34,334 nt of DNA from Sphingobacteriales bacterium (GTDB taxonomy: Bacteria; Bacteroidota; Bacteroidia; Chitinophagales; JADIYW01), in the NCBI GenBank assembly GCA_947460245.1, contig CANHGL010000020.1, forward strand, positions 1 through 34,334, in the 5' to 3' direction. The position numbers and the translations under genes were made by a program. This document shows, piece by piece, positions 1-23,934 of the stretch (position 1 is the stretch's first letter; every line of letters begins with the position of its first letter). The notes under the pieces are model-generated. The model was not told the DNA's origin, searched no databases, and worked only from the letters and a program-made list of their open reading frames with translations.

Positions 1-650
1 TCAAAAGGCAAGAACCAACCTTGCGGATAGCAATAACCAGGGTGTAGTTTTTTGGGTACTACTAGAGAAAAATATTTATTGATATGCGACTCATCATGCC
101 ATTTTGCAATAATTTTCTTCGATAAATCTTTATCTATATTTGATTTTAACTGAAGACACATCTTGAGGAATTCAGGAGACCTTCCTCCTATTAATCCGCC
201 TGCATAGTAATAGACACCTTCACCTGAAGGAATATATGCTGTTGAATTTGCATTCGATTCATAATCGAAATCTTTTCTCTTTTTATGATAGGCTACAGGA
301 TGTAACTGACCAACCAAAAAATTATCTACCGAGTCAGGTAGTAGCTCTTTTTCAGATATATTCTTAATAAATGTATAATTGGCATTAAAAAAATACAGAT
401 AATCCATTTTTTTTAGCTGCTCCGCAATGGATAGAAAAATATGAAATCGCATAAGCGTATCCTTTGGCCATCCTAGTTTTTCCTGAAAAATAACATGAAT
501 ATTTTCCGAGGCTCTCACTTCTTTACTATCCGTAAATACAAAATAATGCTTCTCTATGCCTCTCAATAAATGAAGCTCTGCACTTTTATGAAAACCCTCC
601 CAGAAGGCATCATATTTACCTGTACATATATAGAGTATTCCGACCTTCAT
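1..650 (-). CDS. GT6-family glycosyltransferase (ABO-transferase-like), 3' end cut by window edge
   Basis: Likely transfers alpha-GalNAc or alpha-Gal to a galactose that already carries an alpha-1,2-fucose, the reaction of ABO blood-group transferases and their bacterial homologues. 216 complete codons are visible from the ATG at 650; the end lies outside the window. GT6 hallmarks in order: ILYICTGKYDAFW (5-17), HYFVFTD (35-41), LGWPKDTLMRF (59-69), DYLYFFNAN (83-91), then AYIPSGEG..YYAGG and AKWHDESHINKYF near the cut end. The metal-binding DxD of animal enzymes is NxN here (N89-A-N91), as in known bacterial GT6 enzymes such as the one from Bacteroides ovatus, which work without a metal. No signal peptide, so it is probably cytoplasmic. 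The gene starts 2 nt after the flippase stop, in the same operon as a GT11 fucosyltransferase. Donor choice (GalNAc or Gal) cannot be read by eye. Family call is firm. Confidence 0.9.
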   Translation of the reverse strand, partial: MKVGILYICTGKYDAFWEGFHKSAELHLLRGIEKHYFVFTDSKEVRASENIHVIFQEKLGWPKDTLMRFHIFLSIAEQLKKMDYLYFFNANYTFIKNISEKELLPDSVDNFLVGQLHPVAYHKKRKDFDYESNANSTAYIPSGEGVYYYAGGLIGGRSPEFLKMCLQLKSNIDKDLSKKIIAKWHDESHINKYFSLVVPKKLHPGYCYPQGWFLPF

Positions 651-652
651 TA

Positions 653-2113
653 TTAATAATGATTTTTACGTGGATAAAAGATGCGAGCTACTATATTCCG
701 CCACAGATACAAGAGTATAGAACAAAAAACAAATAATTTAAGTGCTATTTGCAACCATACAGATAAGATCCAAGTATTAATTAAATAGTTTATAATAAGT
801 GCAACTAAAATAATAAGAATAAAATCCAAGAATCTTATTACAGCCGGCACTTTAACGGTAAGAAAATATTTGCATATTATGTAAGTAGATATAAGCATGA
901 ATCCGTAAGAAATGAGCGTAGTATAGGCTGCAGCTACATAACCATACTTAGGAATCAATAAAATATTTAAAATCAGATTTATGATGGCTGCAACAGCAAA
1001 ACTAAAATAAAAGTATTTTACTTTTTTCTCATAATGAAAATAGAAACAGTACAGCTCATTAAGGTCATTAAAAACATAAGACAATATAAGTATCGGCATT
1101 AAATATAAACCTGCATGAAACGATTTATTTAGAGCCAATAATCGACCACCATCAGCAGAAAAAAATATGAAGAAACAAGACAGGGCTACTATCAATTTAA
1201 ACATACTTCTCATCTGAGCAATCACCTCATTTTCTTTATTATCATTCATCAGACTAAATAACCTAGGCCGATTTGCTGTAACGAAGGCAGTAGTTATACC
1301 TGTATAAATAATAGCTATTTTATAAGCATAACTATATAAGCCGGCATCATTACTGCCCTTATAGCTATTAATCATAATAGTATCCAAGTAACCCAAGGCA
1401 AAACCACTAAGACCGATAGGAATAAAACTGATCGAATACTTTAATACAGCTTTCTTAAATGGCATAGCCAAAGAATCTCCTTTAAATAATAAATATTTGC
1501 GAAAGTAAATAAATAGCAAAATAAAAGAGATGATTAATAAAATGATATTTTCTCCCAATATTCGACCACGATAATCCTTGAAAAAATAGACGACAAATCC
1601 TATTGCAGCCATTACCCTGAAGAACTGAATGAAGAACTGCCAAATACCAGAACGAGTACTCTTAAGTTGTGCATTATTATAAGTGTTAAATAGATTAAGA
1701 ACGATATTAGAAAATACACCAATCAACAACCATATAAAAAGCGATTCAGGAATATTCAGAAAGCTCATCAGAGTATCTTTAAATAAAAAGATACAGCCAC
1801 TAAAAATAACAAAGAATACAAGTGATGTTGATAATACAAACTTAACTAAAGGTGAATTATCTATTTGTTCATCAAAATAAAAACGATATAACCCATTAAA
1901 AAGATTCAATGAGAAAACTATACCAAGTATCCTTACCGTATTATTAAAAACCTCATAAACTCCAAAGTCTGACGGAGAAAGTAATTTAGTGAACACAGGT
2001 AAGGTAAAAACCATCATAGCCTGAATAGCCACATAAGAAAACATATAGAGAGAACCATGACGGATAGTGTCATAAAAAGAAAGCTGTTTTATATGTTCTA
2101 TCAATCGCTTCAA
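653..2113 (-). CDS. Wzx-type polysaccharide/oligosaccharide flippase (MATE/MOP superfamily)
   Basis: Integral membrane protein of 486 aa, expected to flip a lipid-linked oligosaccharide across the inner membrane. About 12-14 hydrophobic segments run through the whole length. The N-terminal signature YMFSYVAIQ..FTLPVFTKLLSPSDFGVYE (about residues 23-51) is typical of polysaccharide biosynthesis flippases. The start is TTG (2111-2113), one base after the TGA stop of the upstream GT2 gene. A TAG lies three codons upstream in frame, and the first internal ATG (codon 24) would remove part of the first membrane segment, so TTG is preferred. The one-base gap suggests translational coupling. Sitting among glycosyltransferases, it probably exports the glycan they build. 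Which polymer (O-antigen, capsule or protein-linked glycan) is not shown; no wzy or wza gene is visible here. Confidence 0.88.
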   Translation of the reverse strand: MKRLIEHIKQLSFYDTIRHGSLYMFSYVAIQAMMVFTLPVFTKLLSPSDFGVYEVFNNTVRILGIVFSLNLFNGLYRFYFDEQIDNSPLVKFVLSTSLVFFVIFSGCIFLFKDTLMSFLNIPESLFIWLLIGVFSNIVLNLFNTYNNAQLKSTRSGIWQFFIQFFRVMAAIGFVVYFFKDYRGRILGENIILLIISFILLFIYFRKYLLFKGDSLAMPFKKAVLKYSISFIPIGLSGFALGYLDTIMINSYKGSNDAGLYSYAYKIAIIYTGITTAFVTANRPRLFSLMNDNKENEVIAQMRSMFKLIVALSCFFIFFSADGGRLLALNKSFHAGLYLMPILILSYVFNDLNELYCFYFHYEKKVKYFYFSFAVAAIINLILNILLIPKYGYVAAAYTTLISYGFMLISTYIICKYFLTVKVPAVIRFLDFILIILVALIINYLINTWILSVWLQIALKLFVFCSILLYLWRNIVARIFYPRKNHY

Positions 2114-2114
2114 C

Positions 2115-3146
2115 TCAGTCTATAAATTTATTCCTAAAAAATGAAAACAAAAGAATAGCAAGTTCTTTTTTCAAATGCATAGTACTTTTTTTAGGATTCA
2201 AAAATGCATTCACCTGTTTTAATGCCCTAAATACAGATAAATCATATTTTTTAAGTCTAAGCAATTTCTTTAGCAAGCGGTCATATAGCAATTGCCTCAA
2301 TACTTCATCATTGAAATAATCATACTGCTTATTCAATGATATCAATCGCTCCACCCAAACTAACAATCTATTTATATCCTCCTTATTATTCTTCATGGAA
2401 AAATCAACCAACCCCAGATGTAAATCTGCTTCCTCTTGAGAATACTTGCCTGCAAAATAGAATGCTAACTGATCTAATACCACTTTATTTCTATTACTAA
2501 TTGCATCTTGCGACTGAACCTTAGAGATACTAGCGTCATGCAGTCTGTAAGCCACCAAAACAACTGGTAAAACAACACCCTTGCCACTATAAAGCATCCT
2601 CGTCCAGAAATCATAATCTTCGCAAGGAGGGTAACCAATCCTAAATCCATCTACCGGAACCTTAGACTTTCTAAACATTACCGTAGACGTAACCACCGGA
2701 TTATAGAATAATAAATGAGCCTTAAGTTGATCAGCATCTAGATTAAAAGACCACTTTTCATTTCTTTTGCCTCCCATGGGATTTATTGCAACTGCACTTG
2801 CAGCAACTAAATCTAAAGCTTTATTAGATTGAAAAAGTGCGTACTCTTCTTTTAGTCTATTCTGATCAGCTATATCATCACTATCTAAAAAAGCTAAATA
2901 TTCTGTAACAGCTAAACTGATTAATTTATTTCTGACACGTGTTAATCCTTCATTAATATCGTTTCTGTAATACCTGATTCTTTTATCAGTGAAAGAAGAG
3001 ATTATCTCATGTGTATTATCTGTTGATCCATCATCTATAATAATAAATTCAAAGTCAGAAAGTGATTGAGATAATATACTTTTTATAGCCAATCCAATAT
3101 ACTTCTCAGAATTATATGCCGGCATCAAAACACTTATCAAGCTCAT
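2115..3146 (-). CDS. GT2-family (GT-A fold) glycosyltransferase
   Basis: Inverting nucleotide-sugar glycosyltransferase of 343 aa, expected in the cytoplasm at the inner membrane face. The N-terminal GT-A core shows VLMPAYNSEKYIGLAIKSIL (6-25), the nucleotide-binding IIIDDGSTDNT (35-45) and the metal-binding FLDSDD (86-91, DxD-type D88-S-D90). A later EDYDFW motif corresponds to the usual catalytic-base ED region. The C-terminal 100 residues are basic and helical, without clear membrane segments. It lies in the glycan operon, 12 nt after the FkbM methyltransferase gene and 1 nt before the flippase gene. Family membership is clear; donor sugar and linkage cannot be predicted. Confidence 0.88.
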   Translation of the reverse strand: MSLISVLMPAYNSEKYIGLAIKSILSQSLSDFEFIIIDDGSTDNTHEIISSFTDKRIRYYRNDINEGLTRVRNKLISLAVTEYLAFLDSDDIADQNRLKEEYALFQSNKALDLVAASAVAINPMGGKRNEKWSFNLDADQLKAHLLFYNPVVTSTVMFRKSKVPVDGFRIGYPPCEDYDFWTRMLYSGKGVVLPVVLVAYRLHDASISKVQSQDAISNRNKVVLDQLAFYFAGKYSQEEADLHLGLVDFSMKNNKEDINRLLVWVERLISLNKQYDYFNDEVLRQLLYDRLLKKLLRLKKYDLSVFRALKQVNAFLNPKKSTMHLKKELAILLFSFFRNKFID

Positions 3147-3158
3147 AATCGAATCTGT

Positions 3159-3965
3159 TTAAGACAGTAATTTACGTCTCATTTTCTTATAAACTTTCTT
3201 AAGGCTAGAAAAAACGCTTCTATTCCAAATATAAAAAAATCCTTTCTTTGCTAGTATGAAATCTTTCTTTACCCAAAGCTGATCACCAGCCACAGTATAA
3301 ACCGTATCTTCCAGTTTTATAAAGCCATTAGTGATCATAAAATCTTCTACGTCCTCCTTTAAAGGCTGTTCTTTATATAACTCTATAGCTTCTACTTCCA
3401 ACCAAACCATGTTGATATGGCGTAAAAAATCTCCTGCACCTTTTAACACCAATAGCTCTGCGCCCTGAACATCCATGTGAATAAAATCAATCCGTTCAAT
3501 ATTATTCGACATACAAAATTGCTCCAATGTGTTAGAATGAACTTTTATCTCCTGATTAAATTTTAGCCAAGGATGTATATCAATTGTTCTGGATGGAGGC
3601 AACAAGGAACTGCTCTTATTGCCATAGTCCCAGTTTTCATCTGAAGAACCCTCAGGCTTTCCTGAGGAAACATAAAAAGTTAACTCATCCTGCTTATCAG
3701 ATAAACAGCACTGAAATGGAAAAATATGCTGTTGCGCATTATACTCATCAATGTTTTTTTTTACAAGATCGAAATTGGAAGGAAGTGGCTCAAAACTATA
3801 TATCGTAGCATTGGGGAATAACCTATGATACCTTACAGAACTTTCTCCTTCGCATGCTCCAATATCAAAAATGAATAGAGAAGAATCCTTATCCATTATA
3901 CCCAAGAGGATCTTCTCCTGTTGCTGAAGCTCTTTTGATTCTATATATTTTTGACGCTTATTCAT
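3159..3965 (-). CDS. FkbM-family SAM-dependent methyltransferase
   Basis: 268-aa class I methyltransferase expected to O-methylate a sugar or similar small substrate with S-adenosylmethionine. Motif I is FIFDIGACEGESS (31-43), the acidic ribose-binding FEP follows at 58-60, and the FkbM-typical FIHMDVQGAELLVLKGA lies at 161-177. The last 30 residues are very basic (SSLKKVYKKMRRKLLS), perhaps for membrane contact. The ATG at 3965 directly abuts the TAA stop of the GT11 gene (no intergenic base), so the two are probably translated together. FkbM enzymes occur in many glycan loci, where they methylate hydroxyls of sugars; a methyl ether here could cap or decorate the chain, which is inference. 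Confidence 0.85.
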   Translation of the reverse strand: MNKRQKYIESKELQQQEKILLGIMDKDSSLFIFDIGACEGESSVRYHRLFPNATIYSFEPLPSNFDLVKKNIDEYNAQQHIFPFQCCLSDKQDELTFYVSSGKPEGSSDENWDYGNKSSSLLPPSRTIDIHPWLKFNQEIKVHSNTLEQFCMSNNIERIDFIHMDVQGAELLVLKGAGDFLRHINMVWLEVEAIELYKEQPLKEDVEDFMITNGFIKLEDTVYTVAGDQLWVKKDFILAKKGFFYIWNRSVFSSLKKVYKKMRRKLLS

Positions 3966-4838
3966 TTACTTAACAATCCAGCCTTTAGGAACAAGCTCTA
4001 TAGACTCTGTCTGAAGATTACAAGTCCAATGCTTAGGCACAATTACTACTTTATCAGGGTTGTTATTTAACCATGCTGCCCACCAGCTAAAGGTGCTATT
4101 CGCAATAATATGATGTTTACATATAGACATCAGATAAAAATCTTCTACTGCTGAATTCCCTGAAATCAAAGTACTATTGATATCCCAATGCATCTCCTCT
4201 CTTACCCATTTCTCATCATCTGTAAACAAAAAGAAAGGCACATCATCACCAAACTGGCTTTTCATGTGATTAATCGCCTTTGAATAATAATCTTTAGAGC
4301 ATATACCATGGGCATCCATAGAAGAAAGATTCCTTATATAATCCCCTCTGCGTATATGGATTGCTACTGCATTTGAACTTTTTATTTTATTAATTAAGAC
4401 TGCGTCTTTTGGAATAAATTCTTCTTTAATAGTCAGGCTAGCCCTAATAGAATCTGCGATTTTTTTAAAATACTTGTCGGATTGAAAAAACCCTCTGATA
4501 TAGTAATTACCTTTTAACTCAAGTAAGTGCGGATCAAAACCATACTCATCAAACTTATATTTTTTATTCTTACCAAAAGAAACCAGATGTGTCCATACCC
4601 TTTCTTTAGTAGAAAAATCATGCCCATGAAAATCGTACAATACTTTTTCGTCGGCAATTTGACAATCTACATTAAAGGCATTTAACTCATAATTCCTCTT
4701 AGATGTCCCCTCTACAGAAGATTGCAGAAAAGTAAGATCTACATATAAATCTGTATGATTGAGTTTGGCGAGATGACTGGCAGCAGCATATTGGAAAAGC
4801 TGGTTTCCTAAACCGCCCATTAAACGTACTATGATCAT
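3966..4838 (-). CDS. GT11-family alpha-1,2-fucosyltransferase
   Basis: Expected to transfer L-fucose from GDP-fucose to O-2 of a terminal galactose, giving an H-type Fuc-alpha-1,2-Gal unit. GT11 signatures are complete: MIIVRLMGGLGNQLFQYA (1-18), the GDP-binding HIRRGDY (161-167), FFLFTDDEKWV (202-212) and HHIIANSTFSWWAAWL (242-257). The start was placed at the ATG at 4838 because the family begins with this exact N-terminal motif. A longer frame reaches 4922, but its 28 extra residues do not fit the family and would overlap the divergent gene at 4883. The resulting 290 aa is the usual family length. It is the first gene of the minus-strand glycan operon whose last visible gene is a GT6 enzyme, the classical next step on an H-type acceptor. 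Confidence 0.92.
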   Translation of the reverse strand: MIIVRLMGGLGNQLFQYAAASHLAKLNHTDLYVDLTFLQSSVEGTSKRNYELNAFNVDCQIADEKVLYDFHGHDFSTKERVWTHLVSFGKNKKYKFDEYGFDPHLLELKGNYYIRGFFQSDKYFKKIADSIRASLTIKEEFIPKDAVLINKIKSSNAVAIHIRRGDYIRNLSSMDAHGICSKDYYSKAINHMKSQFGDDVPFFLFTDDEKWVREEMHWDINSTLISGNSAVEDFYLMSICKHHIIANSTFSWWAAWLNNNPDKVVIVPKHWTCNLQTESIELVPKGWIVK

Positions 4839-4882
4839 TTTTTTATTGGATGCGAATTTGTATTTTGCCCTAAAATTACAAA
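4839..4882. promoter_or_regulatory. Short divergent intergenic region between GT11 and ceramidase-like genes
   Basis: Only 44 bases separate the two divergent start codons, so both promoters must lie here or overlap the coding ends. The plus strand has TATTTTG at 4861-4867 and the minus strand TAATTTTA (4872-4879); each resembles the Bacteroidota -7 box TAnnTTTG with one deviation. Neither has a TTG about 19 bases upstream. I therefore do not claim a defined promoter, only that the region probably drives both operons. Confidence 0.3.
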
Positions 4883-6646
4883 ATGTTATCCATTGGAACA
4901 GGAAAAGGTGATATAACCGCATATTTTAATGGATTAGGTATGCTTGGCTATGGCTTACCTAATCATTATATGCTAGGTATCGAAACCCGTCTACAATCAA
5001 GGGCCTTTGTTTTCGAAGAGACAGAAGAGGCCAGAAAGGCTTGTTTTGTAAATTGTGAACTTGGATTTATTACCCCATCCTTAAAGCAAGGCGTGCTTCA
5101 AATCCTTCAGAAGGAGCATCCGGGGCTGGGCTATAATGTTGGTAATCTTCTTATTTCTGCACAGCATACCCATTGCGGACCAAGCGGCTATTCCCATCAT
5201 ATTTTATATAATATGTCAACCCCGGGATTCCACAAAGGGGTGTTTGATAAAATTGTTTCAGGAATTGTTATTTCTATTCTGGAAGCTGAAAAAAATAAAC
5301 AAAAAGGAAGTATAACAATAGGCAAAAGCAGCTTTTCTCCGGATATCCCTGTGAGCTTTAATCGTAATATTGATGCCTATAATTTAAATCCTGAAGTAAT
5401 CAAATACACTCATGAAACAAGGCATTTAGCAGTAGACCGCGAGATGACTGTTTTAAACTTCATAAGTGCTAACGGTAAAGCCCTTGGCTCCATTAATTGG
5501 TTTGCTGTTCACACTACCAATTTACCCAATACCTACTATAAAATTTGTGCAGACAATAAAGGATATGCTTCTACCTATTTAGAGGAATCCTTTACAAAAG
5601 AGAATAAGCATTATGTAGCGGCCTTTGCACAAGGTGCTTGTGGCGATGTATCTGCACGCGTAAAATACAACCCTAAGTTACCTGCTAAAAGAGGCAAATG
5701 GGAAGGATATTTTACTGATGATTTAAAAAGTTCAAAATTTAACGGAACACTGCAATTTGAGAAAGCCAGAGAGATTATAGAAAATAGTACTACTCCAGTA
5801 AAAGAAGAGACTATAGATTATATATCTATGTATGTAGATTTTAGCAATATCCATATAGATCCAAAATTTACAGATGGCAAAACAGAAGGCGTAACTAGTC
5901 CGTCTTGCATGAGTATATCCTTTCTTGAAGGCTCGCAGATGGATGGTCCAGGCTTACCTCTTGCTCTTGGAAAAGTAGCCAGAGTAATTGCAAAAAATGC
6001 GAGAAATAAAGAAATAAAGGAAGCAGCAAAAAAAGGTGGCGCATATGCATCTTTTGTTGAGAGAAAAAACAAGGCTCAAGCCAATAAAGAAATTGGTGTT
6101 GCAAGTGGTGAACGTAGATTTTTGGGTAACCTTGAACCCCTACAGATACCACTTCCCGGATTTATTGATGAAACAATATTAAATATCAAAAAACTTGCTA
6201 AGCAGGGAGGTTTTGAACCAGAGCATCCATGGACGCCACAAGTTCTGACATTACAAATTATAAAGATTGGATCTATCGCAATATGCGCCTTTCCTTTTGA
6301 AATTACCACCGTTGCATCCTGGAGATTAAAGAAAACTATCGAAGAGGCTCTACATGAAAAAGGTGTGGAATTTGTAATTTTGGCGCCTTACTCCAATGAA
6401 TACAATGGCTATATTACTACCTTTGAAGAATACCAAATGCAATTGTATGAAGCAGGTCATAATGTTTTTGGCCAATGGAGTTTAAATGCATTACAACAAA
6501 AATTTACAGAACTGGCAGACTTATTTAAAAAACCATTAAGAGAAAGAAAAATAGAAAATGAGGCCTCACCTGATTTGTTTACCCCTGAGGATTTAAAGAA
6601 ACAGTCTTATTTCAAGAGCAACAGAACACTTAAATTAGAAAGATAA
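4883..6646 (+). CDS. Neutral/alkaline ceramidase-like hydrolase without a signal peptide
   Basis: 587-aa member of the neutral ceramidase family, zinc amidases that cut ceramide into sphingoid base and fatty acid. Family landmarks: [16 protein letters not shown] (9-24), [13 protein letters not shown] (92-104) with zinc-ligand candidate H97, [16 protein letters not shown] (204-219) with H210, DNKGYAS (224-230), [10 protein letters not shown] (248-257) with S257 at the place of the catalytic serine, [11 protein letters not shown] (471-481) with candidate ligand E473, and [19 protein letters not shown] (505-523). The serine hexapeptide reads GDVSAR rather than the GDVSPN reported for characterised enzymes. 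Unlike secreted ceramidases, no signal peptide is present, and the protein is shorter than animal or Pseudomonas enzymes. It leads a probable operon with the CoA-transferase genes (17-nt gap). The true substrate could be another N-acylated lipid. Confidence 0.82.
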
Positions 6647-7372: not shown

Positions 7373-8032
7373 ATGTTAGATAAAGACGGAATCGCGAAAA
7401 GAATTGCCCAGGAATTAAAAAATGGGTATTATGTCAATCTCGGTATAGGCATACCCACCTTAGTCGCTAATCATATACCGGAAGGCATTAGCGTTACCTT
7501 TCAATCTGAAAACGGAATGCTGGGAATGGGTCCATTTCCCTTCGAAGGAGAGGAAGATGCTGATTTAATTAATGCTGGAAAACAAACTGTTACAGTTATG
7601 CCTGGAGGTAGTTACTTTGACTCTGCTACCAGTTTCGCAATGATTAGAGGAGAACATGTTGATTTAACTATCTTAGGGGCAATGGAGGTAAGTGAAACAG
7701 GAGATATTGCCAACTGGAAAATACCAGGAAAAATGGTAAAAGGAATGGGGGGAGCTATGGATTTGGTAGCCTCTGCAAAACATATTATAGTAGCAATGCA
7801 ACATGTCAATAAAGCCGGAGAATCCAAGTTGCTACCCAAATGCACCTTGCCACTAACAGGCCTGCACTGTGTTAAAAGAATAGTAACGGAGCTTGCTGTA
7901 ATTGATATTACACCGAACGGTTTCAAGTTAATAGAAAGAGCTCCTGGCGTAAGTGTAGATGATATTAAAAAAGCTACTGAAGGAAAACTTATAGTAGAAG
8001 GTGAAATTCCTGAAATGCACCTATACCTATAA
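7373..8032 (+). CDS. scoB: 3-oxoacid CoA-transferase subunit B
   Basis: Beta subunit (219 aa) carrying the catalytic glutamate of class I CoA-transferases: E46 within [12 protein letters not shown] (43-54), the residue that forms the glutamyl-CoA thioester in this family. [17 protein letters not shown] (22-38), [20 protein letters not shown] and [16 protein letters not shown] are also typical. The ATG at 7373 was chosen because [20 protein letters not shown] is the standard N-terminus; the frame opens upstream at 7304 but that stretch is lysine-rich and overlaps scoA. It forms the enzyme with the preceding subunit. Its last six bases overlap, tail to tail, the end of the minus-strand gene at 8027. 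Confidence 0.92.
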
Positions 8033-9361
8033 TAAAGGGATATCTATAAACAATTTCACATTTCCTGCTTCATCCATAGAGTATTCTTTCATGCTGTTCA
8101 ATTTCTCTGCGTCATTACATATAATTAGAAAAAGGTAATCATCTTGTAATACACTCTTTTTTGTAGCAATATAAGGGTCACCTTTATACGAATTGAGATT
8201 AGTAATTTTACACTGATGGTTTTTATTATAATGAGAAGCTATACCCCTAAGCAATACATCAACATTCTCTGCTGACCCTGTAATCATAATTGGATAAAGA
8301 ATATTCTCTGTAAGTTTCAAGCTGGCCAAAAGTTTAAAGAAACCTTTCGGATTTTCTAACTGAAGCGAAAAGTATTCTCCCCAATTAATAGCTAAACAAG
8401 CAGCATCCATTTTACCATTTTCATCCTCTACCATGTATGCACGTGATGATTTTGAATAAAAAAGCACCTTCTCCACTATATTTAGAAACTCCTGCTCTGA
8501 ATGGATATGAAAAAATGTATAATGTTCCTTTTGCGATCTTAACTTCTGGTAGAATTCCCTCAGTCTATCTTTATCATCAGATATATCTATACACTTTTGA
8601 AAGGATTTTTTACTGCCAAAGAATTGGTTTACCATCGTATTATTGGTGAATGCCCATTTCTCATAATGCTTCTGATATAATTTTGTGTTCAGCTCTAATG
8701 CCTCATTGATAGCCTGATTTTCCTTACCCATCGCTCCATAAGTAAAAGCAACATTTTCTTCTACTCCAACGATACTGTGCATAATACTAAACATCAATGT
8801 AAATATTTTTTTACGTCGATACATTTTTCTACCATCCTCCACTCGCTCACTTACCCTGAGCATATTGTAATAATAGCCATCGTAACGCTTACCATCATTA
8901 TATACATCCATTCTATTTACATGGATATAGCCTACTACATTATAGGCTCTCTCTCCTCGTTCATTATTCTTTTGAGGATGTAAAACTACAACAACTAATG
9001 CATTCGTATTGAGCGACAAAACAGAATCTGGGAAATTGTGAAAGTAGGCCTGAAAGGCAAACTTACCCTGACCTCTGTCATTTATATGTTTTTCCGGTAC
9101 AGAAATAATATCCTTACACTGATGAAAGAAATAGTCATTATCAGATACATACCCTAAACCGCCAAGGATATCTCCCATTCTAGGAAGAAAGTTTATATCT
9201 GTAACAACAATCTCCAACGGCTCTTCAAAGATGTCGTATGAATCTATTTCTATAGTTTCATATTTAAACCTTCCTTCACTATCAGGCTCTACCCGTTTGT
9301 AGTTTCTTCTTCTCATATGCTTATTTGGAGGCAAATCTATGTCCGAATAAGCAGTAAACAT
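8027..9361 (-). CDS. Unrecognised conserved-looking cytoplasmic protein, 444 aa
   Basis: I do not recognise this protein. It has no signal peptide, membrane segment or cysteine cluster. The N-terminal 40 residues are polar and basic ([12 protein letters not shown]). Residues about 110-210 read as alternating strands and a basic helix ([20 protein letters not shown], then RMYRRKK-like residues), and the C-terminal half has a second alpha/beta stretch with strands such as YPIMITGS and YLFLIICND. The two halves could each be acyltransferase-like (GNAT) folds, but no acetyl-CoA-binding loop is visible, so this is only a guess. It is monocistronic, convergent with scoB (6-nt overlap of stops, TAG at 8027-8029), and separated from dprA by about 95 bases. 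The ATG at 9361 is the only good start. Confidence 0.75.
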
Positions 9362-20779: not shown

Positions 20780-21478
20780 ATGAGATTTACTATTTCTATC
20801 TTTTTGATAATTCTCATTAGCTATGTTCAAACATCGTTTGCCCAGAAATACTCGCCAATACTAATCACTTTTAGCCCCATAATTGAAGAAGAGCAACTTG
20901 TACTTCACAAGCGCTACGTACTAAAAGATAATGATACACTAAGCATTGAAAATCTCAGGTTTTACATTTCCGGAATTCAGCTATTCAATAATAATAATTT
21001 GGTTTGGAAAGAGAAAAACAGCTTCCATTTAATTGACCAGGAAGACACTAACTCCAAAATAATAAGCCTGACTGTTAATAAGAATATCCTCTACAATAAA
21101 GTAAGCTTTAACCTTGGTATTGATAGCCTAACTAATGTTTCCGGTGCTTATGGTGGCGACTTAGACCCTACCAAAGGAATGTACTGGACCTGGCAAAGTG
21201 GCTATATAAATTTAAAGATGGAAGGAATTAGCAGTTTGTGCGGCACTAATAATCATGAGTTTCAGCTACACCTTGGTGGATATCAGGCACCCTACAATAG
21301 CTTACAATACATAACCCTTAGCATCGACAACCCAAAAAAAATAAACATCCTCTTAGATATGTCTGAGGTGATGAAATCTATCCATTTAAAAAAAGAACAC
21401 CATATCATGTCACCGAGTGATAGTGCTGTAAAACACTCTAATACGATTGCAAACTGTTTTAAAATTGCATCGCCATGA
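20780..21478 (+). CDS. MbnP-family exported copper-binding protein
   Basis: 232-aa exported protein with signal peptide (ISIFLIILISYVQTSFA, cleavage before QKYSP). The family core is clear: LRFYISGIQLF (59-69), FNLGIDSLTNVSGAYGGDLD (110-129), GMYWTWQSGYINLKMEG (133-149) and FQLHLGG (161-167). Cysteines C154 and C227 could form a disulfide. In methanotrophs the partner di-heme enzyme MbnH oxidises a tryptophan of MbnP to kynurenine, which creates a copper site; W136 and W138 are the obvious conserved-looking tryptophans here, although which one is modified is not known from sequence. The stop overlaps the MbnH-like start (ATGA). Confidence 0.85.
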   Translation: MRFTISIFLIILISYVQTSFAQKYSPILITFSPIIEEEQLVLHKRYVLKDNDTLSIENLRFYISGIQLFNNNNLVWKEKNSFHLIDQEDTNSKIISLTVNKNILYNKVSFNLGIDSLTNVSGAYGGDLDPTKGMYWTWQSGYINLKMEGISSLCGTNNHEFQLHLGGYQAPYNSLQYITLSIDNPKKINILLDMSEVMKSIHLKKEHHIMSPSDSAVKHSNTIANCFKIASP

Positions 21479-22494
21479 AAAAACTATATGTTATTGGTCT
21501 GCTTTTTTTATTGATGAGTTTCACAGCCAGGAAGCAACTCTTTCTAACTCCTAAAAACTGGCCAGATCCATGGTATAATTTTTCCAAAAACAAGTTATCG
21601 AGGGATAAAATTGCCTTAGGAAGGGCCTTGTTTTACGATCCCATTCTTTCAAAGAACAATACTATATCTTGTGCTAGCTGCCACTCTCAGTTCTCAGCAT
21701 TTACACATGTTGACCATGCCCTTAGCCATGGGATAAGAGATAGCATAGGCATCCGGAATGCTCCGGCGTTAATGAATTTAGCGTGGCAAAAAGAATTTAT
21801 GAGAGATGGTGCCATTAATCATTTGGATATGCAAGCATTGGCACCCATATCCAATGCGGCTGAAATGGGTAGTTCGATAGATAGCGTTGTATATAAACTA
21901 CAAAATACAAAACGCTATCCATCACTCTATTTCAAAGCATTTAGAGATAGTAGCATCACCGGCGAAAAGACCCTGAAAGCCATTGCCCAATTCATGCTCA
22001 CTTTGGTATCTGCAAACTCCAAATATGATAAGGTTTTGCGCAAAGAGGCAAAGTTTACTGAACAGGAGTTAAATGGATATACACTATTTCAAAAAAACTG
22101 TTCTTCCTGCCATCAGGAGCCGCTATTTACTAATGGGAAATTTGCTAATATCGGTCTACCCATAGATAGCATGCTAAAGGACTATGGCAGAATGGGAATT
22201 ACTAAAAATCCAGAAGATTCATTAAAATTCAAGGTGCCTACATTACGAAATATAGAATTTTCGTACCCCTATATGCACGATGGACGATTCAAAAAGCTAT
22301 CAGAAGTACTTAATCATTACACTAAAAGCATTATAATAAGCAAATCAGTAGCTCCAGAATTAATTAATCCCTTAATTTTAACATCTAGGGAAAAAGTGGA
22401 CTTGACTGCTTTTTTATTAACCTTAACAGATAAGGAATTTCTTTTTAATCGGGAATTCTCTTATCCAAAAGAACTTCTATTAAATATTAAATAG
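21475..22494 (+). CDS. MbnH/cytochrome c peroxidase-family di-heme protein
   Basis: 339-aa exported di-heme c-type cytochrome of the CCP/MauG superfamily. The N-terminus is an export signal (KKLYVIGLLFLLMSFTA). Two CxxCH heme sites: CASCH at 66-70 and CSSCH at 209-213. Other family features are IALGRALFYDPILS (46-59), GIRNAPALMNLAWQ (92-105), FKVPTLRNIEFSYPYMHDGR (252-271) and SEVLNHY. Translational coupling with the preceding MbnP-type gene (4-nt overlap) makes MbnH, which activates MbnP through bis-Fe(IV) chemistry, more likely than a plain H2O2-scavenging peroxidase. Discriminating between the two needs the distal heme ligand to be assigned by alignment. Confidence 0.85.
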   Translation: MKKLYVIGLLFLLMSFTARKQLFLTPKNWPDPWYNFSKNKLSRDKIALGRALFYDPILSKNNTISCASCHSQFSAFTHVDHALSHGIRDSIGIRNAPALMNLAWQKEFMRDGAINHLDMQALAPISNAAEMGSSIDSVVYKLQNTKRYPSLYFKAFRDSSITGEKTLKAIAQFMLTLVSANSKYDKVLRKEAKFTEQELNGYTLFQKNCSSCHQEPLFTNGKFANIGLPIDSMLKDYGRMGITKNPEDSLKFKVPTLRNIEFSYPYMHDGRFKKLSEVLNHYTKSIIISKSVAPELINPLILTSREKVDLTAFLLTLTDKEFLFNREFSYPKELLLNIK

Positions 22495-22569
22495 ATAGTA
22501 TCGGAATATTTATCTGAAATTATCGTCTAAAAAGGAAATTATTATCTATAACTAACTATATATATTCTG

Positions 22570-23934
22570 ATGAAAAAAACTATTCTCGCTATTCTGGTAT
22601 CCATCTCGACTATCACTCAGGCACAAACTAATCCTGTAATTATATCCTGGCTACAAAACAATACCACCACAGGCAAGCATTATGTTTCAGGAAACTATAC
22701 CCCTATCGTAGATGCGGTTTTGGCAAATGTGCAAAAGGTTCAATACTCTGGTAGTTTTGTATATATCAGCACACGTGGAATTCCTACCTATATTACCGGA
22801 CCTTTTTTAGGTGGAAATACATCATTAGCCTCAGATCAGAATGCGATCTTCAAACTTCCATTGAATCCAACAAAAAATACTGGCACTCCAACCAATACAA
22901 CCGGTGGAAATATTGGCCTTTTTATCAATGGCGTTGCTTTATTTGATTACCGTGATGGCGTTTCCTGGAAGAACTCTTCTAATTCTATATGCGGCGGACC
23001 TATACAACCGCCCTGCACTGGTGATGGCGTTTGGAACAGAGATGCGATAGTAGCGGAACGAGACGGTTTTGATTGTTCTAAGGCTCATCCAGCTAATGGC
23101 AATTATCACCATCACCAAAACCCAAGTGCCTTTAGATTAGACTTAAATGTCATTTCTACTATCTGTAATTTATATCCATCCGATGGGCTCTACGTTATAG
23201 ACAGCACCAAGCACTCACCGCTTATCGGATTTGCTTACGATGGATTTCCTATTTATGGCGCTTATGGATATAAAAATGCAGATGGGACAGGCGGAATTGT
23301 AAGAATAAAATCCAGTTATAAATTAAGATCTATCAGCACCAGAACTACATATGCTAATGGAACTACGGTTACCACAGGACCAGCCGTTAGCGGCACCTAT
23401 CCGCTGGGTTATTTCAGAGAGGATTACGAATATATCACCACATCACTATCTACACCAGATTATTTAGATGAACACAATGGCAGAATCTGCATAACTCCAG
23501 AATATCCTCAGGGAACTTATGCATATTTTTGTACAGTAGATGCGAAATGGAATTCAGCATATCCGTACGCTGTAGGACCTACCTTCTATGGGGTAAAAAG
23601 TGCAACCAAGGTGGCGTCTATCACAGAATCTGTTACCACTTACACCCCTAGCGTTACTGCGCTCTTCCAAAGCAATATCGGAGACATGAAGATATCTACT
23701 TATCCAAATCCTGCCAGCGATTTTATAGCGCTGCAGATTGGAGAATTCTCACATCAGAATATCTATGTTACCTTGTTTGATATCAATGGAAAAAAGTTAG
23801 CAGAAACCATTATCTATCAGGGCAGTACAATGTGTTATTTTGATACCAGAACACTCTATGATGGTGAATACTTATTATCTATAACAGATAACCAATCAAG
23901 TACAACCAAAAAAGTAATTATACAAAAAGACTAA
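22570..23934 (+). CDS. Secreted YHYH-domain protein with T9SS type A sorting domain
   Basis: 454-aa exported protein. Signal peptide at 1-19 (ILAILVSISTITQAQ). The central part (about 150-340) is a YHYH domain: AHPANGNYHHHQNPSAF (172-188), where the name-giving motif reads YHHH, SPLIGFAYDGFPIYGAYGY (216-234), LDEHNGRICITPEYPQGTYA and YFCTVDAKW. Cys141, 149, 169, 199, 307 and 321 could form disulfides outside the cytoplasm. The C-terminus (about 374-454) is a type A T9SS sorting domain: STYPNPASDFIALQ, VTLFDINGKKL, YDGEYLLSI and a terminal KKVIIQKD. It is therefore probably displayed on or released from the cell surface. YHYH function is not established; the histidine-rich motif and the copper-related neighbours suggest metal binding, which is inference. 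Confidence 0.85.
   Translation: MKKTILAILVSISTITQAQTNPVIISWLQNNTTTGKHYVSGNYTPIVDAVLANVQKVQYSGSFVYISTRGIPTYITGPFLGGNTSLASDQNAIFKLPLNPTKNTGTPTNTTGGNIGLFINGVALFDYRDGVSWKNSSNSICGGPIQPPCTGDGVWNRDAIVAERDGFDCSKAHPANGNYHHHQNPSAFRLDLNVISTICNLYPSDGLYVIDSTKHSPLIGFAYDGFPIYGAYGYKNADGTGGIVRIKSSYKLRSISTRTTYANGTTVTTGPAVSGTYPLGYFREDYEYITTSLSTPDYLDEHNGRICITPEYPQGTYAYFCTVDAKWNSAYPYAVGPTFYGVKSATKVASITESVTTYTPSVTALFQSNIGDMKISTYPNPASDFIALQIGEFSHQNIYVTLFDINGKKLAETIIYQGSTMCYFDTRTLYDGEYLLSITDNQSSTTKKVIIQKD

Follow-up and report, generated by a model that had tools for sequence, protein, structure and literature searches.

Does the glycan operon at the left end of this stretch encode an ABO-type structure, and if so, which of its enzymes act together? 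The stretch, contig CANHGL010000020.1 of the Sphingobacteriales bacterium assembly GCA_947460245.1 (34,334 nt; here the window, or contig C20 of the 85-contig genome G000), carries a gene for a putative fucosyltransferase of family GT11 (GT11a) and one for a glycosyltransferase of family GT6, and an earlier note on this DNA had proposed that the two act in sequence. The best reading of the locus, which we regard as probable from the encoded enzymes, is an A-type trisaccharide, with an H unit made first and converted to A. One fucosylated oligosaccharide would be assembled in the cytoplasm on a carrier lipid. A GT11 enzyme would transfer L-fucose from GDP-fucose to galactose, most likely in alpha-1,2 linkage (an H-type unit), and the metal-independent GT6 enzyme would then add N-acetylgalactosamine (GalNAc) alpha-1,3 to the same galactose; the product would be a trisaccharide resembling blood group A. 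GT6 probably has as its partner a second fucosyltransferase, GT11b, whose gene follows GT6 on another contig; GT11a would add another fucose or work at another place. An FkbM-type methyltransferase may methylate a sugar, and a Wzx-type protein would flip the oligosaccharide outward for display at the cell surface.

The operon and its probable continuation on a second contig

The operon is encoded on the minus strand and runs, in the direction of transcription, from GT11a through FkbM, GT2 and the flippase to GT6, with spacings of 0, 12, 1 and 2 nt. GT11a (3966-4838) matched PF01531 with 129.8 bits against a cut-off of 23.9 when the longer frame 3966-4922 was scanned, and its H-I-R-R-G-D-Y stretch is conserved in a 20-row alignment. 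It is followed by the FkbM-type methyltransferase gene (3159-3965; PF05050, 75.7 bits; TIGR01444, 92.4 bits, cut-off 37.7), possibly serving sugar O-methylation, and by a GT2 glycosyltransferase gene (2115-3146; PF00535, 113 bits), for which none of the NCBIfam equivalogs scored above its own cut-off. The Wzx-type flippase (653-2113) matched PF01943 (49.5 bits) and PF13440 (33.3 bits), both above cut-off. GT6 (3-650) matched PF03414 with 115.5 bits (cut-off 25) and NF041524 with 286.7 bits (cut-off 250). The Pfam matches and the tight spacing of 0-12 nt thus bear out the operon of GT11, GT2, flippase and GT6 genes described in the earlier note, in which the FkbM gene was overlooked.

GT6 had been taken as the last visible gene. 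It does lie at the window edge, but it is incomplete: its frame is still open at window base 3, and window base 1 is the end of contig C20. Bases 1-157 of contig C3 encode a GT6 C-terminus (51 residues), followed by GT11b (C3:154-1041), which overlaps the GT6 stop by 4 nt, so the operon extends past the window end. The gap between the two contigs is estimated at about 6 bases from an alignment with the complete GT6 of the related genome G008. A genome-wide search for GT11 in G000 returned two places, the window gene and C3:154-1035, and both proteins are members of the family (GT11a 128.4 bits, GT11b 111.2 bits, cut-off 23.9), at 40% identity to each other. Downstream of GT11b on C3 lie the gene for a large membrane protein, which matches YfhO below threshold, and then another GT2 gene. 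The YfhO-like protein (896 aa; L034:1064-3754, directly after GT11b; 18.2 bits, cut-off 28.5) might carry out a transfer step in the periplasm. It was also considered as a possible ligase and set aside, given the Pfam match below cut-off and an unusable predicted model (mean predicted local distance difference test score, pLDDT, 44.3). Proteins related to it occur near GT6-GT11 in the Chitinophaga loci L081 and L089 and in L093.

Enzyme specificities and precursor supply

The GT6 protein is closest among solved structures to BoGT6a of Bacteroides ovatus (4ayj, E 1.3e-67; also 4cj8), to which it is 51-54% identical, followed by the human ABO transferases (E about 1e-23). The predicted model of the window-encoded part (mean pLDDT 93.5) superposes on 4ayj with a template modelling (TM) score of 0.95 at 51% identity. 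In place of DXD, the protein has an NXN motif, N89-A90-N91 (NAN, as in BoGT6a), and E187 is the catalytic Glu, likewise shared. Table 2 of PMC3961637 lists 18 ligand-contacting residues, 15 of which fall within the window-encoded part; 13 of the 15 are identical in GT6. The C-terminal contacts Lys231, His239 and Arg243 were matched in the G008 GT6 by alignment and in the C3 fragment by eye. The earlier note had suggested reading the donor residues against characterised GT6 proteins; this gave the triplet AGG, equal to that of BoGT6a and the commonest triplet among 82 aligned GT6 rows (23 of 82). According to PMC3961637, BoGT6a transfers GalNAc without metal to 2'-fucosyllactose and similar acceptors, yielding A-antigen-like products. 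GT6 is accordingly classed here as a member of the bacterial metal-independent (NXN) clade and a predicted GalNAc transferase.

Family GT11 consists almost exclusively of alpha-1,2-fucosyltransferases (PMC8439653), and an alpha-1,2 linkage to galactose is the likeliest here. Searches for a solved GT11 relative found none, whether started from a single sequence (best E 0.1) or from a profile of 20 rows (best E 0.11). BLAST scores placed neither GT11a nor GT11b consistently nearer to the GT11 proteins of other GT6 loci.

Genes for the precursors were found elsewhere in G000. The GDP-fucose genes gmd (590.7 bits, cut-off 415) and fcl are adjacent on C19, and GalE is encoded on C1 (295.6 bits, cut-off 262.3). 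An epimerase on C14 is closest to WbpP (E 2.7e-105) and WbgU, which we take to be enzymes making UDP-GalNAc; by similarity, it is the putative UDP-GalNAc supply gene. PF04932 (Wzy_C) had no match on C20 or C3 and two on C1, of which a single one passed the cut-off, other polymerase families not being searched. As a flippase is present and no polymerase was seen, the product is likelier to be one oligosaccharide than a polymer. The other three flippase-family matches of G000 lie on contigs without GT11.

Pairing of GT6 with GT11 and the choice of partner

A scan of genomes with conserved-peptide patterns gave 135 GT6 loci, of which the best 80 were analyzed; four of these come from the window's genus and several others are nearly identical Gemmiger loci, so that they are not 80 independent cases, and some extend less than 8 kb on one or both sides of GT6. 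Cultured carriers of both GT6 and GT11 include Chitinophaga alhagiae T22 and a Sphingobacterium strain. A GT11 profile built from ten genus sequences matched 61 of the 80 at E 1e-5 and 57 at a score of at least 100, the four lower-scoring loci (L057, L058, L063 and L076) being left out. GT11 was thus found within about 8 kb of GT6 in 57 of 80 loci, four of them from the window's genus, and in 38 of the 52 loci longer than 16 kb. The commonest position was directly downstream on the same strand (24 loci); 4 were directly upstream, 15 further down, 10 further up and 3 on the other strand. The remaining case is a fusion: L130:2098-3741 holds one frame of 541 aa (from 2116) in which PF03414 precedes PF01531 across a short linker, a single instance on a 5.7-kb metagenome contig titled Candidatus Kuenenia. 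Other fused frames in GT6 loci join GT6 with GT2 (L104:8001-9614), GT6 with a flippase domain (L121:8001-10007) and GT2 with GT11 (L086:10556-12451).

In an even sample of 395 Bacteroidota genomes, GT11 was present in 42 and GT6 in only three, a small number, all of which also have GT11; besides G000, these are G382 and G103, with GT6-GT11 distances of about 0.1 kb and 0.9 kb. On a GT6 tree of 81 rows (the second GT6 fragment of L069 being left out), the distribution of GT11 neighbours takes at least 12 changes to explain, which means that the association arose or was broken several times. It extends to phages. Cyanophage P-SSM2 (L146; AY939844.2, 194494-211108) carries GT6 (PSSM2_268) and GT11 (PSSM2_265) about 1.5 kb apart, in a cluster that also holds GT2, GT25 and several nucleotide-sugar epimerases. 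Its GT6 matched 71 phage records and its GT11 103; comparison of 60 listed matches for each gave at least 30 records with both genes, within 1.5 kb in each, many of them near-identical ACG-2014f isolates. A general GT6-GT11 gene pairing with fusion was not described in the titles or abstract beginnings of the papers listed by searches of open-licence PMC literature, subscription papers lying outside this search.

Within a sample of 13 genomes from the family, GT6 was detected in five, all among the eight of the window's genus, and GT11 in ten. G008 and G002 hold GT11a-FkbM-GT2-Wzx-GT6-GT11b-YfhO-like in this order on a single contig. In G003, FkbM is absent at the operon spot; in G007, FkbM and GT2 are separated by extra genes, and GT11b is cut by the contig end. 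GT11b directly follows GT6 in all four, and a ceramidase-like gene adjoins GT11a in G001-G004 and G006-G008. Since gene order is retained in relatives, the arrangement is more than chance. The flippase frame starts with TTG in G000, G008 and G003, and GT11b does so in G008, G003 and G002. On the opposite strand inside the G007 locus lies a gene for a 1849-aa protein with PKD and CHU_C type IX secretion domains (L031:8527-14076).

G004 and G006 keep the frame of ceramidase-like gene and GT11a on one side and Wzx and GT11b-YfhO-like on the other, with GT2 (G004) or a methyltransferase-like gene (G006) preceding GT11b. GT6 was not found in G004 (86% complete) or G006 (95% complete), where its absence is uncertain as both are broken inside the locus; G005 (85% complete) returned neither GT6 nor GT11. 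In G011 and G012, of another genus, GT11b-YfhO-like is present without GT6. As GT11a and GT11b stay in genomes without GT6, the fucosyltransferases look like the constant part of the locus and GT6 the variable part. In a tree of the ceramidase-type proteins, G004 and G006 fall together with G000 and G007 (support 89/91, below star level), and GT6 was likely lost or replaced in G004 and G006.

These arrangements bear on which fucosyltransferase serves GT6. GT11b is the likelier partner because it directly follows GT6 in the genus, the layout that is also commonest elsewhere (24 of 80 loci). The converse, that GT11a makes the GT6 acceptor and GT11b acts elsewhere, is somewhat unlikely: GT11a does lie in the GT6 operon and is retained in relatives, but it too persists without GT6 (G004 and G006). 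The sequential action of GT11 and GT6 put forward in the earlier note therefore gains from the closeness to BoGT6a, the widespread linkage, the fused frame and the precursor genes, but the fucosyltransferase at the operon start, on which it relied, is the less likely partner.

Several observations weigh against an A-type unit. BoGT6a Thr134, which contacts a GalNAc sitting in the acceptor site (PMC3961637), is replaced by Asp129 in the window GT6, an enzyme of predicted activity, and by Asp or Asn across five genus members; because of this contact, the replacement is what, at sequence level, most calls the acceptor into question. BoGT6a Asn69 likewise corresponds to Asp64. No GT11 was seen in the stretch examined around GT6 in 23 of the 80 loci, and GT11b persists without GT6 in G004, G006, G011 and G012, so neither enzyme strictly needs the other. 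Alpha-1,3 activity is known in family GT11 from at least one member, HhFT2 of Helicobacter hepaticus, which makes Lewis x (PMC4202792). The fcl match falls just below its cut-off (499.6 against 500 bits), a galactose-adding enzyme was not identified, and the junction of C20 and C3 is deduced from assembly contigs.

The replaced Thr134 and the separate occurrence of GT11b and GT6, together with the hint of a modified sugar given by FkbM, would also fit a glycan in which GT6 and the GT11 enzymes modify different residues, GalNAc being placed on an unfucosylated or otherwise modified sugar so that no ABO-type unit arises. We consider this unlikely in view of the recurrent direct adjacency (24 loci downstream and 4 upstream of 80) and the single GT6-GT11 frame; moreover, the position of Thr134 is Thr in 34, Pro in 29 and Asp in 6 of the 82 rows, and so is variable also beside GT11. 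A B-type or other variant, with GT6 moving galactose or another sugar instead of GalNAc to the fucosylated galactose, is improbable: donor choice in human GTA and GTB is set by four residues (PMC4202792) and GalE is present for UDP-galactose, but the AGG triplet is that of the GalNAc enzyme BoGT6a, the corresponding residues of human GTB are Met266/Ala268 (PMC4202792), and the genome holds the putative UDP-GalNAc-type epimerase.

Carrier, known systems and wider meaning

The carrier of the proposed A-type oligosaccharide may be protein, lipopolysaccharide or another molecule. Sites of the form D-[ST]-[AILMVT], counted by a crude rule in five pooled genus genomes, have an observed/expected ratio of 1.45 in 30 export-like proteins and 1.26 in 95 others. 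The Bacteroidota O-glycosylation loci for outer glycans (LFG type; PMC12871550) resemble the present one in combining a flippase and several glycosyltransferases with a species-variable interior. They differ in having metG, which defines the Bacteroides-type loci, beside the flippase; here, metG is not among the named neighbours in L028 (ceramidase, CoA transferase, DprA, prolyl oligopeptidase and glycosyltransferase genes), although it was not specifically searched. A further difference is that the studied Bacteroidota O-glycan fucosyltransferases group as GT2 and not GT11 (PMC8698959).

In E. coli O86, as described in PMC4202792, a GT6 (WbnI) and an alpha-1,2-fucosyltransferase also serve one surface glycan, an H unit being followed by the GT6 step. 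O86 is B-type (PMC4202792), whereas the window donor triplet is A-like and C20 and C3 lack a PF04932 match. A DNA search of the E. coli set with an Acinetobacter GT6 gave no match. P-SSM2 shares the closeness of GT6 and GT11 in a glycan cluster; it is a phage, the two GT6 proteins (its own and that of the window) share 36.8% identity, and no flippase is among the annotated features shown.

Outside the proposed pathway, the operon is flanked by the neutral/alkaline ceramidase-like gene (4883-6646, plus strand; PF04734, 368 bits), divergent from GT11a. The two start codons are only 44 bases apart (4839-4882), and this neighbourhood is retained in relatives. A 444-aa frame at 8027-9361 has no Pfam match, and similar-looking frames stand at the corresponding place in L028, L029 and L031. 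Farther along the window, 20780-23934 holds, consecutively, genes for an MbnP-like protein, a di-haem cytochrome c peroxidase/MauG-like protein and a YHYH protein with a type IX sorting tail.

The earlier note called a blood-group-like epitope in this organism unusual; for Bacteroidota in general this claim is weakened, as BoGT6a itself comes from Bacteroides ovatus (PMC3961637); GT6 is nevertheless rare in the phylum sample (3 of 395 genomes). Bacterial ABO-like enzymes have been discussed in terms of vertebrate-host-derived genes and molecular mimicry (PMC4202792). The pair spans Bacteroidota, Pseudomonadota, Bacillota, Patescibacteria-type lineages and cyanophages, in one case as a single frame, and for this reason we tentatively raise the possibility that GT11-GT6 represents an ancient module for 'H then A/B' synthesis that moves among prokaryotes and phages, and not host mimicry. 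Within the genus, other genes would then take the place of GT6 next to two retained fucosyltransferases, a parallel to the ABO/H polymorphism that plays out between species. The enzyme pairs, one of them naturally in a single frame, could serve the synthesis of blood-group oligosaccharides, and the survey names bacteria that could be environmental sources of A-like antigens. The A-type locus itself is of a known kind, given BoGT6a, and the breadth of the GT6-GT11 pair is the more interesting part: its presence in uncultured Chitinophagales-type bacteria, across many further lineages and among cyanophages suggests that prokaryotes and phages use this chemistry for their own surfaces.

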